Translations under genes and position numbers: made by a program
Notes under the pieces: model-generated
Database searches by the model: none
What the model was told of the DNA's origin: nothing
The model's input: only the letters and a program-made list of their open reading frames with translations
Assembly (NCBI RefSeq): GCF_000745005.1
Contig: NZ_JQNB01000001.1
Span: forward strand, 3,527,501 to 3,591,500
DNA from: Luteibacter sp. 9135
Lineage (GTDB): Bacteria; Pseudomonadota; Gammaproteobacteria; Xanthomonadales; Rhodanobacteraceae
Direction of reading: 5' to 3'
Length of the DNA stretch: 64,000 nucleotides
In this document: positions 4,289-7,220 of the stretch, in pieces
Position numbering within the stretch: the stretch's first letter is position 1
Layout: every line of letters begins with the position of its first letter

Positions 4289-4657
4289 GTCGCCTCTCCC
4301 GATCCGAAGGCCGGCAAGGGGGCCGACATGAGGTGTAAAGCAAGAGCCGTGCCGCACCAACCTATCTTCAATTCAACAGGTTAGATCGCCCAGTTCCCTA
4401 TGCCGGGTCAATTCATGGCCACTTTTGTCACTTTTTATCCACGGCAGGCACGTCGCACCGGCCATGAGCGGCGATATGTCGGTGCCACCGACGTCCGAGC
4501 CCCGCCAAAGAACCCGGGCTCAGCCCAGCGGAACGCAGCGAAACACCGGAAAACCCCGGCGCCACGTTGACATTCGCAGAATAGTGCACGAGCATGGATT
4601 TTCATTCGGCCTTCCAGACGTCCATAAGCCACGACGCTTCCGGGGAAAAAATCCATC
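4289..4657. other. intergenic region upstream of leader ORF
   Basis: This stretch separates the divergent Hpt-like gene and the leader/TonB-receptor unit. I see no convincing coding sequence. It holds a possible -35 box (TTGACA at 4567-4572) serving the plus strand, and an AACCT/AGGTT inverted repeat near 4359-4382. Promoters for both directions presumably lie here. Confidence 0.5.
4567..4596 (+). promoter_or_regulatory. possible promoter of leader ORF and TonB receptor
   Basis: A perfect TTGACA hexamer sits at 4567-4572. The hexamer 17 bases further on is GAGCAT, a poor -10. A start near 4602 would give about 55 bases of leader before the GTG of the small ORF. Only the -35 is convincing. 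Confidence 0.3.
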
Positions 4658-4735
4658 GTGACCACGCAGCAGCCCATCCACACGCCTTCCACGATCGCCC
4701 TGTCGATCGTGGCGTGTCGCTGTTGTCGTAGCTGA
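4658..4735 (+). CDS. Cys-rich leader peptide (25 codons), putative attenuator
   Basis: A GTG-initiated 25-codon ORF begins VTTQQPIHTP and ends in the cluster ACRCCRS before a TGA, that is three Cys codons within four codons next to the stop. A GGGGA stretch lies about 12 bases upstream. An inverted repeat covers codons 11-18, immediately before the Cys codons, and a second GC-rich hairpin follows the stop. The TonB receptor start is 112 bases downstream. The layout is that of a ribosome-mediated attenuator in which stalling at Cys codons would change RNA folding or Rho access. Cysteine-tract leader peptides are known upstream of sulfur-assimilation genes in Actinobacteria; the assignment here is inference. 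Confidence 0.6.
   Translation: MTTQQPIHTPSTIALSIVACRCCRS
4689..4712 (+). promoter_or_regulatory. hairpin inside the leader ORF
   Basis: CCACGATC at 4689-4696 and GATCGTGG at 4705-4712 form a perfect 8-bp stem with an 8-base loop. It ends just before the Cys codons, so a ribosome stalled at those codons would melt or mask its 3' arm. Confidence 0.6.
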
Positions 4736-4744
4736 TGTTTCGCT

Positions 4745-4763
4745 GCCGGCGCGCGTCGCCGGC
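4745..4763 (+). promoter_or_regulatory. GC-rich hairpin after the leader stop
   Basis: GCCGGCG (4745-4751) and CGCCGGC (4757-4763) make a 7-bp all-GC stem with a 5-base loop. It has no U-tract, so it is not a classical intrinsic terminator. The C-rich, G-poor run that follows (CACCCTTCCCCGTTCACCC) would suit Rho loading. Confidence 0.5.
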
Positions 4764-4847
4764 GCGGCACCCTTCCCCGTTCACCCGGCGGCCCGGCGCC
4801 TTCGCGTCGGCGCGCGGTCGCCCCTGAAAAACCAAGGAAACCGCCCC

Positions 4848-7220
4848 ATGAAGCATGCCTTGCCCGTGCGCCTGTCGCTGTCCGTCCTGGTCGCGGCGCA
4901 AACCCTCGTTTCCGCCGCGCATGCACAGGACGACACCACGAAACTGCAGACCGTGGTGGTCACCGGCACACGCTCGGTCGATCGCAGCCAGAGCAGTTCG
5001 CTCTCGCCCATCGATGTGGTGTCGGCCCAGGACCTGCAATCCTTCGGCGATACGCAGCTGGGTGCGATCCTGTCCCGGCTTGCACCGTCGCTCAACTTTC
5101 CCCGTGCGCCGGGCAACGACGGTTCCGGCATCGTTCGTCCGGCCGCCCTGCGCGGCCTGTCGCCGGACCAGACGCTGGTGCTGGTGAACGGCAAGCGCTG
5201 GCACACCAGTGCCCTGCTCAACCTGCAGGGTGCGCTCGGGCGGGGTTCGGCCCCGGCCGACCTCAACGCGATTCCGGTCTCGGCGATCGACCATATCGAG
5301 ATCCTGCGTGACGGTGCCTCCGCGCAATATGGCTCCGACGCCATCGCGGGGGTCATCAACGTGGTGCTCAAGGGCGCGGCGGGCACGGGTACCAACACCG
5401 CCAGCATCACCGCGGGGCGCTACAGCGCGGGCGACGGCCGGCAGTGGCAGGGCGAGGCCAGCCTGGGCGTGCCGCTGGGCGGCGACAAGGGCTGGGCACG
5501 CCTGAGCCTGGTCCAGGGCCATGCGGATGCGACCAACCGCGGCGGCCGCGACTATCGCGACCCGTCGTCACCGGTCTACGGCCAACGCACGCAGCGCATC
5601 GGCGAGCCCGATATCCGCAACCACCAGGCTCTTCTGAATGTGCAGTACGCACTGTCGGCCGGCGTGGACGCCTACGCGTTCGCCAGCACCAGTAGCCGCG
5701 AGGGCACCTCCCCCGCCCTGTTCCGCACCTACGACAGCGCGCGCAACGTGCGGTCGATCTATCCTGAGGGCTACCTGCCCCTGAACGACGTACGCTCGAT
5801 CGACAGCGCGCTCGTGGCCGGCGTGAGAGGCACCACCACCCACGGGTGGCGCTGGGACATCAGCGGCAACTACGGCCGCGACAGGGTCGGGATCGACCCC
5901 ATCCACACGCTCAACGTCGATCTTGGCGACGCCAGCCCGACGCGATTCAACGCGGGGCGGCTGACCGCGACGCAGAAAGCCTTCGATGTGGACGTGGCGC
6001 GCGACCTGGAGGTCGGCTGGCTGCGCAATCCGCTGACGCTGGCCTTCGGGCTGGAATACCTGCACCAGCAGTACGCCATCGATGCGGGCGATCCGTCCTC
6101 GTACCTCGGCACCGGCGCGCAAGGCTTCCCGGGGTTCCAGCCAGGCGACGCCGGCAGCCACGCCCGCCACGATGTCGCGGGCTACCTGAGCCTGGAAAAC
6201 CAGATCACCGATAAACTCAGCGGCTCGCTGGCCGTGCGTCACGAGCACTACAGCGACTTCGGCAACACGACGTCGGGCACGCTCTCGGCCCGCTACGACT
6301 TCACCGATGCCTTTGCGCTGCGCGGCACGGCCGCCACGGGATTCCGCGCACCGTCCTTACCGCAGCAGTTCTACACCACCACCTCGACCAACGTCATCGG
6401 CGGCGTCCCGACGCAGATCCGCAACTTCGCGGTGAGCGACCCCGTCGCGCGTGCCCTCGGCGCCGAGCCGCTGAAGCCCGAGAAGTCACACAACTACACG
6501 TTGGGCGCGGTCTATGCGCCGGGCGCATGGACACTATCGCTCGACCTGTACCAGATCACCATCGGCAACCGCGTCGTGCCATCCGAAAACCTGGTGGGCG
6601 ATGCCGTGCGGGCTTACCTGGACAGCCAGGGCTTCGCCCATATCCAGGGCGGCAGCTATTTCACCAACGCGCTGAAGACGCGTACGCGCGGCGTCGACCT
6701 CAGCAGTGGCTACCGCCTCGACCTGGGCGACGCCGGCAGACTACAGTTCACCGCGGCCTACAACCGCAACCACACATCGATCCTCTCGGTCGCGCCGAAC
6801 CCGGCGTCGCTGGCGCAGAACGGGCTGGAACTGGTGCGCGTCGGCCACATCGCCCAGGGTTACATCACGCGCGGCGCGCCGCGTGACAAGATCGCACTGG
6901 GCACCGATTACGGGCGGGGCCGATGGAACCTGCACGGCGCCCTGACCCGTTACGGCGAATTCACCGTGAACCAGGACCCGGTCGGCAACCCGGGTTTCGA
7001 CCAGGTGTTTCCGGCACGCTGGCTGCTCGACCTGTCCGCCAGCTACGCGACCCATGGCTGGACGTTCACGGCCGGCGTGGACAACCTCACCAACGTCTAT
7101 CCGCAGAAATACAAGACCGGCAGCGACGGCGCGGTCGGCGGCACGTGGCCGTATCCCGACTACTCGCCGTTCGGCTACAGCGGTCGCTACCTGTACACGC
7201 GGGTGGCCTATCGCTGGTGA
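4848..7220 (+). CDS. TonB-dependent outer-membrane receptor
   Basis: This 790-residue receptor has a signal peptide ending near AHA, a TonB-box-like TVVVTGTR, a plug domain (about residues 35-170, with LNAIPVSAIDHIEILRDGAS and YGSDAIAGVINVVL) and a 22-strand-type barrel ending in aromatic YTRVAYRW. AAGGAAA lies nine bases before the ATG. It would import a scarce nutrient using TonB energy. The Cys-codon leader upstream hints that the substrate is a sulfur compound, but the receptor itself does not reveal it. The gene ends tail-to-tail with the next kinase gene, overlapping it by 13 bp. Confidence 0.9.
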   Translation: MKHALPVRLSLSVLVAAQTLVSAAHAQDDTTKLQTVVVTGTRSVDRSQSSSLSPIDVVSAQDLQSFGDTQLGAILSRLAPSLNFPRAPGNDGSGIVRPAALRGLSPDQTLVLVNGKRWHTSALLNLQGALGRGSAPADLNAIPVSAIDHIEILRDGASAQYGSDAIAGVINVVLKGAAGTGTNTASITAGRYSAGDGRQWQGEASLGVPLGGDKGWARLSLVQGHADATNRGGRDYRDPSSPVYGQRTQRIGEPDIRNHQALLNVQYALSAGVDAYAFASTSSREGTSPALFRTYDSARNVRSIYPEGYLPLNDVRSIDSALVAGVRGTTTHGWRWDISGNYGRDRVGIDPIHTLNVDLGDASPTRFNAGRLTATQKAFDVDVARDLEVGWLRNPLTLAFGLEYLHQQYAIDAGDPSSYLGTGAQGFPGFQPGDAGSHARHDVAGYLSLENQITDKLSGSLAVRHEHYSDFGNTTSGTLSARYDFTDAFALRGTAATGFRAPSLPQQFYTTTSTNVIGGVPTQIRNFAVSDPVARALGAEPLKPEKSHNYTLGAVYAPGAWTLSLDLYQITIGNRVVPSENLVGDAVRAYLDSQGFAHIQGGSYFTNALKTRTRGVDLSSGYRLDLGDAGRLQFTAAYNRNHTSILSVAPNPASLAQNGLELVRVGHIAQGYITRGAPRDKIALGTDYGRGRWNLHGALTRYGEFTVNQDPVGNPGFDQVFPARWLLDLSASYATHGWTFTAGVDNLTNVYPQKYKTGSDGAVGGTWPYPDYSPFGYSGRYLYTRVAYRW

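Follow-up and report, generated by a model that had tools for sequence, protein, structure and literature searches.

A cysteine-codon leader ORF, probably an attenuator, ahead of a TonB-dependent receptor in Luteibacter, and similar leaders at other uptake genes

A short ORF with terminal cysteine codons

Can a leader peptide that reads cysteine supply govern how a nutrient enters through the outer membrane? This question is raised by a short open reading frame (sORF) with a cysteine-rich end in the genome of Luteibacter sp. 9135 (4.485 Mb, one contig), within the 64,000-nucleotide stretch of DNA analysed here (the window). The sORF lies ahead of the gene for a TonB-dependent receptor, with the following features.

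4642..4646, + strand: Shine-Dalgarno-like GGGGA of the sORF, from sequence
4658-4735, + strand: leader sORF of 25 codons with a GTG start, VTTQQPIHTPSTIALSIVACRCCRS, from sequence
4715..4726, + strand: putative regulatory codons TGT CGC TGT TGT, from third-position-biased variation in the tract
4834..4838, + strand: Shine-Dalgarno-like AAGGA of the receptor, from sequence
4848..7220, + strand: TonB-dependent receptor of 790 aa, Plug plus beta-barrel, from domain match

A preliminary description of this DNA had reported a 25-codon GTG ORF ending in ACRCCRS, 112 bases ahead of a TonB receptor, and the sequence confirmed it: the peptide has this C-terminus, its cysteine codons are all TGT (4715-4717, 4721-4723 and 4724-4726) and 112 bases lie between its stop and the receptor ATG (4848). 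The sORF does not precede a cysteine biosynthesis operon; it precedes a TonB receptor, and the next gene is on the - strand. An Rfam scan of positions 4300-5000 yielded zero matches up to an E value of 1, and the 25-aa leader peptide had zero matches in NCBIfam and Pfam. The six named relatives of the receptor at 83-89% belong to Luteibacter. On comparative sequence evidence, we consider the sORF to be, with good probability, a leader-peptide attenuator through which a shortage of charged cysteine tRNA would turn the TonB receptor on.

Conservation of the leader in receptor paralogs

The 60 receptor matches were grouped by identity, with boundaries that we drew ourselves, into group A (15 sequences, 83-100%), a pair at 52-53%, group D (17, 48-50%), group B (16, 44-46%) and group C (10, 41-43%). 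Upstream regions were screened with a strict filter (three Cys in seven of the last 14 codons) and a looser one (two in six). The orthologous receptor, group A, was present in 15 of the 23 Luteibacter genomes, in each case behind a cysteine-tail sORF with three to five Cys, and both the cysteine codons and the hairpin of the sORF described below were kept in 15/15. The strict filter was passed by 15/15 regions of group A, 13/15 of those of group B with an uncut upstream region, 2/10 of group C, 0/17 of group D and 0/2 at 52-53%, and the looser filter by 15/15, 14/15, 4/10, 1/17 and 0/2, respectively. The group D pass (L068), a CC within a short ORF, was not taken to be one. Group B tails usually read PRCFVVRACCCCLG; the copy in the Luteibacter sp. 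9135 genome, with the leader VNAHTCRAPAFPSMSAATPRCPVGAACRSCRRA, passed the looser filter only, that of genome G011 was identified by eye, and that of G012, which a contig end truncates, has the sequence ..SRCPVASACCRCPG.

These counts bear on the simplest alternative, in which the sORF is a functionless short ORF arisen by chance in GC-rich DNA. Short ORFs are common, and a cysteine-tail sORF was found upstream of two of the 64 mechanically called window ORFs of at least 300 aa, one being the TonB receptor at 4848 and the other one of the 63 remaining ORFs. By one and the same filter, however, the sORF recurred in group A (15/15) and group B (13/15), against 0/19 of the sister paralogs, and it was present at both of the permease genes described below (2/2), which makes chance extremely improbable.

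The pattern of variation also distinguished the cysteine tract from the rest of the peptide. Pairwise differences between the 15 group A orthologs at the first, second and third codon positions were 0.179, 0.076 and 0.415 in the tract, as against 0.376, 0.367 and 0.285 over the whole sORF. The third position was thus the most variable in the tract, but not over the whole sORF, indicating that the identity of the cysteines is kept while the remaining peptide drifts. Cysteine was encoded by TGT in 43 cases and by TGC in 15 in the leaders, versus 3 and 19, respectively, in six window genes, so the locally rare codon is preferred in the leaders.

No neighbouring gene was shared around the group A receptor among the 14 loci read for gene order. 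Two of the orthologous receptor copies (L034 in G007 and L046 in G014) contain one in-frame stop each (TAG and TGA, respectively), and these are possibly broken genes or sequencing errors. A search of the Luteibacter sp. 9135 genome with the generic pattern TGYCGNTGYTGYCGN returned 38 places and was uninformative, and two tighter polycysteine patterns revealed no further leaders in this genome, one suggestive place (L228) being dismissed as it sits within a 193-codon open frame.

Structure of the leader RNA and termination

Four structural or compositional features were recognized in the leader.

4680..4717, + strand: sORF hairpin, with an outer stem of ACACGC (4680-4685) and GCGTGT (4712-4717) and an inner stem at 4690-4711
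4690-4711, + strand: perfect 8-bp hairpin CACGATCG-CCCTGT-CGATCGTG, from sequence
4742..4768, + strand: second GC-rich hairpin past the sORF stop, without a U-tract, from sequence and folding
4769..4786, + strand: C-rich, G-poor stretch, a candidate Rho-loading region, from composition

The perfect hairpin, the second GC hairpin and the C-rich run of the preliminary description were therefore all present. The pairing of the two halves of the outer stem places the first cysteine codon inside the stem. Across the 15 group A orthologs, 92.0% of the cells of the sORF hairpin were paired, with a covariation of 0.270, versus 0.137 in shuffled alignments (0/500) and no more than 0.118 when the hairpin was slid; both sides had changed in four of ten pairs, a number reached in 6/500 shuffles. 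The group B consensus fold was almost without covariation, and the structural claim is accordingly confined to group A. In the leaders of four loci (L041 and L043-L045), a TAGGAGCGCGC-TGCGCGCGAT hairpin lies between the sORF and the receptor, and we take it to resemble a repeated REP-type element.

A scan of the + strand between the sORF and the receptor in the window detected no terminator; the preliminary description had noted the lack of a U-tract. The C/G ratio of this gap was 1.34 in the window, with means of 1.64 for the 15 orthologs and 1.41 for group B, as against 1.04 for 17 control upstream regions of the window. C exceeded G in all 29 leaders measured from groups A and B. The highest 78-nt C/G ratio in the window leader (1.44) was exceeded in two of the 17 controls, the control pieces being shorter than most leaders. 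The leaders of the permease genes described below had ratios of 1.83 and 2.38, and those of a second type of receptor ratios of 1.30 and 1.45. The excess of C over G in groups A and B would fit Rho loading, and we put the chances of Rho being the terminating agent in the window at about even. The Rho dependence suggested in the preliminary description would thus be a matter of base composition, and two relatives have an intrinsic terminator instead. In these relatives, G052 and G011, a strong hairpin with a U run lies between the sORF (MKLFMPRVIRSAGNCCCPCACVRGEHVEAMAG and MNIHFPRTANLAADCCRGLFVRGISVEEAVC, respectively) and the receptor. When folding was performed with a ribosome on the cysteine codons, both terminators stayed intact and no antiterminator was found; a simple fold therefore does not explain the switch.

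The stalled ribosome might instead refold the RNA and open the Shine-Dalgarno sequence of the receptor, without transcription termination. Such translational attenuation would suit a window in which no terminator was found, and a leader that is long and GC-rich, with several hairpins in its predicted folds; it is also the mode of action described for mycobacterial cysteine leaders, including those of the cysteine genes of M. smegmatis (PMC13236596). Nevertheless, inspection by eye of the 15 predicted folds disclosed no common helix over the receptor start, and a strong intrinsic terminator lies at the same place in the two relatives. We consequently regard translational attenuation as unlikely, and favour an attenuator that acts on transcription.

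Promoter and MetJ-like site

Upstream of the sORF, a promoter and an operator-like site were predicted, and the corresponding repressor gene was found elsewhere in the genome.

4567..4595, + strand: promoter-like -35 TTGACA (4567-4572) and weak -10 GAGCAT (about 4590-4595), predicted
4608..4631, + strand: weak MetJ-box-like site just past the -10, 11 of 16 positions
G000:C1:1946209-1946463, Luteibacter sp. 9135 genome: MetJ homologue (PF01340)

TTGACA and AGCAT were invariant in the alignment of the 15 group A orthologs, in which the sORFs come after this block and the MetJ-like region; a consensus promoter scan of the window did not flag 4567..4595. The predicted promoter would place the GTG of the sORF about 55 nt into the predicted transcript, with the GGGGA upstream.

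Sites were scored against the MetJ box consensus. Scores of 12-14 of 16 were obtained in 13 of the 15 group A upstream regions (window: 11), and a score of at least 12 in 9/10 regions of group C, 2/2 at 52-53%, 1/15 of group B and 0/17 of group D; in coding background, this level was reached at four positions in 165,227 bases. With at most one mismatch, the box pattern occurred 70 times in the Luteibacter sp. 9135 genome, versus 11 times for the reversed control. The MetJ gene was detected in 22 of the 23 Luteibacter genomes, including that of Luteibacter sp. 9135, the genome without it being 80% complete. This weak, putative tandem operator, with a MetJ protein in the genome, would resemble the MetJ regulon of Gammaproteobacteria, and TonB does not appear in the main text of a study of that regulon (PMC4239095). 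In the table of the same survey, none of the four Xanthomonadales genomes has a MetJ entry, although Luteibacter sp. 9135, of this order, has a homologue.

MetJ alone might therefore control the receptor, the sORF being a relic. The group A boxes and the MetJ gene speak for this, as does the occurrence outside Luteibacter of boxes scoring at least 12 without an accepted leader, in 7/14 distant relatives and 17/21 further family loci. Against it, the cysteine codons are kept by third-position-biased variation, the hairpin covaries, and similar leaders recur at other genes, even where a good box is absent; control by MetJ alone appears very improbable. With such a box in 1/15 of group B and a best score of 10 of 16 at the two permease leaders, double control by leader and MetJ is not general.

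Similar leaders ahead of other uptake genes

Covariance models of the group A leaders (R1) and of the group B leaders (R2) were used to search for further copies. R1 gave two strong extra matches (E = 4.6e-9 and 7e-9), upstream of a TonB receptor that contains a CarboxypepD_reg domain, and R2 found two copies ahead of a permease (E = 3.9e-7 and a weak 0.00275).

L225:3090-6086 (G010) and L226:2882-5878 (G017): TonB receptor, CarboxypepD_reg and Plug, with a like promoter, MetJ-like box and Cys leader
L223:3143-4669 (G004) and L224:6106-7617 (G014): CyuP-like permease behind a Cys leader, with the leaders VNTVDLDTTNDTTLFTALPCRAGGRSCCRPC and MSTVDIDTTNFPTPFTALPCRLVGRSCCRRHG, respectively

Both of the CarboxypepD_reg receptor leaders had a MetJ-like box with 14 of 16 positions. 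Three weak R1 matches (G003, G022 and G009) fell on known group B leaders; R1 matches with E >0.006, seven of which were inspected (L182 and L191-L196), were treated as chance. The R2 match at 0.00275 was accepted in view of the 88% identity between the two permeases and the similarity of their leader peptides, and L214 and L217, at a similar E level, were judged to be chance and dropped, a Cys sORF being absent there. The sORF, its cysteine tract, the hairpin containing the first cysteine codon and the recurrence of the leader at several uptake genes emerge from the comparison of sequences, and this anatomy suggests codon-specific stalling in the leader peptide.

Alternatively, the tract might act as a nascent-peptide sensor of metal or redox state, rather than of cysteine supply. 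The tail is rich in cysteine, TonB receptors are often metal importers, and the exported CutF protein, with copper, provides a precedent for nascent-peptide sensing. Nevertheless, insertions of Arg, Gly and Leu occur in the tract and its Cys number varies from three to five, as would be expected of codon counting more than of a binding motif; no export signal was apparent on inspection of the peptide, and the leaders are linked to MetJ-like sites and a CyuP-like importer; a metal or redox sensor seems quite improbable, and we retain the cysteine-supply attenuator.

The permease scored 426-433 bits with TIGR00814, under the model cut-off of 525.8, and shares 70.5% identity, over 99% of its length, with an E. 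coli protein annotated as cyuP on a plasmid, beside cyuA. It was present in two of the 23 Luteibacter genomes, that of Luteibacter sp. 9135 not among them, with the leader in both. A tblastn search with E. coli cyuA in the 10-kb stretches around the permease detected no cyuA (best E = 4.1). E. coli CyuP is a cysteine-specific importer according to transport measurements; it is assigned a catabolic role and a KM of 20 uM, and is said to occur in facultative and anaerobic bacteria (PMC9040844). Even so, with its Cys leader and without an adjacent cyuA, the CyuP-like permease is a candidate assimilatory cysteine importer, and so bears on the question of the nature of such an importer.

Distribution outside Luteibacter

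Outside the genus, we read 14 distant relatives and, from a search matching 102 of 147 genomes, another 22 loci of the family (L144 and L146-L166). Among these loci, a convincing leader was found in G052 only (L144), and it was absent from the Dyella, Rhodanobacter and other Rhodanobacteraceae loci read. The conservation in Rhodanobacteraceae that the preliminary description proposed to check therefore extends to the genus and one other genome: the cysteine codons and hairpin held in 15/15 Luteibacter orthologs, but the leader was absent from the other family genomes read, except G052. Several looser-filter matches were dismissed by eye: L016, L017 and L146-L148, whose ORFs start before the apparent promoter or run across it, L161, whose ORF overlaps the receptor start, and L153, L160 and L162, which lie at least 240 bases upstream.

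Sulfur metabolism

The family comprising PAPS reductase and CysD (PF01507) had no match in the Luteibacter sp. 9135 genome, nor in 17/23 Luteibacter genomes, with 13/14 controls positive; the sulfite reductase family (PF01077) had no match in this genome, nor in 21/23, with 11/14 controls positive. The standard sulfate reduction route is mostly missing from the genus. A group A or B leader was also present in all six genomes with a PF01507 member, and the leader is therefore not tied to the loss of sulfate reduction. A fungal-associated Luteibacter, strain 9143, is described as unable to use sulfate and as growing on cysteine, methionine or high thiosulfate (PMC9040847), a phenotype that the attenuator reading would fit. 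The sulfur link originally suggested for the receptor gains independent support from the MetJ-like sites, the like leader at the CyuP-like permease and the absence of sulfate-reduction family matches from the Luteibacter sp. 9135 genome.

Taken together, these data somewhat favour a cysteine-attenuated scavenging regulon, in which polycysteine leaders would control both a solitary CyuP-type permease and TonB receptors from more than one family, in some cases stacked on MetJ repression, in a genus mostly unable to reduce sulfate; attenuation would then serve as a switch for outer-membrane sulfur import, and the permease would provide a first candidate assimilatory cysteine uptake route. The leader also offers a handle on TonB receptors without an assigned substrate, as the prediction for its carriers is that they take up cysteine or another form of organic sulfur.

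Relation to known leaders and proposed mechanism

Genes of biosynthesis and of tRNA synthetases are known to be under amino-acid attenuation, the classical attenuators being of the trp, his and ilv type; here, attenuation appears to govern nutrient entry through the outer membrane. As in the classical systems, the leader peptide contains codons of the regulated amino acid, to which G052 and G011 add a terminator; unlike them, the target in the window is import across the outer membrane, and an antiterminator was not found. Polycysteine leaderless sORFs of mycobacteria were reportedly described by Canestrari et al. in 2020, and the window sORF differs from these in having a predicted Shine-Dalgarno sequence of its own, a structured sORF and a MetJ-like site. 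The leader peptides of actinobacterial and mycobacterial cysteine operons likewise have a run of Cys close to the end of a short ORF that precedes sulfur genes, and for those of Actinobacteria the account given is that a conserved terminator hairpin was not found and that Rho was suggested (PMC1262725). By contrast, the window host is a gammaproteobacterium, and the targets are outer-membrane receptors and a permease, not cysteine biosynthesis operons. The uORFC-8-2 motif, ahead of cysS in Rhodobacterales, is similar in having an upstream ORF with conserved Cys codons inside the first stem, and ribosome-mediated attenuation has been proposed for it; it is described as having tandem Cys at positions 14-15, a 3' U run and cysS as its only target (PMC8632094), whereas the window leader has a terminal Cys tract, no U-tract and a TonB receptor, and thus neither the cysS nor the U run of that motif. 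Cys leaders as such were already known (PMC1262725 for Actinobacteria, PMC8632094 for cysS); the TonB receptor target sets the window leader apart. This agrees with the preliminary description, which had named no precedent for such control: among the entries listed in literature searches of titles and abstract beginnings, none described a Cys leader at a TonB receptor gene.

The cysteine-supply attenuator of that description is supported by the retention of the cysteine codons and hairpin in 15/15 orthologs, and its operation can be envisaged as follows. With plentiful cysteine, the ribosome would pass the Cys codons, most of which are TGT, the codon that is rare locally, and exit at the stop, after which transcription would end within the leader. 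Under cysteine shortage, the ribosome would stall, the sORF hairpin would open and termination would be prevented. The terminating agent would most likely be Rho in the window, acting on the C-rich RNA past the sORF, and the intrinsic terminator in the two relatives. The MetJ-like site at the promoter could add a second, SAM-reporting brake on the TonB receptor. The likely purpose would be the scavenging of organic sulfur by a bacterium apparently unable to reduce sulfate.

Neighbours of the group B receptors

In the Luteibacter sp. 9135 genome, the genes downstream of the group B receptor (L098:8325-11343) encode first an M28 peptidase that has PA and TFR_dimer domains and next a DUF1345 protein. 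An M28 peptidase with both of these domains follows the group B receptor in all three genomes checked (Luteibacter sp. 9135, G001 and G011), and its position beside these receptors may point to peptide-bound sulfur.
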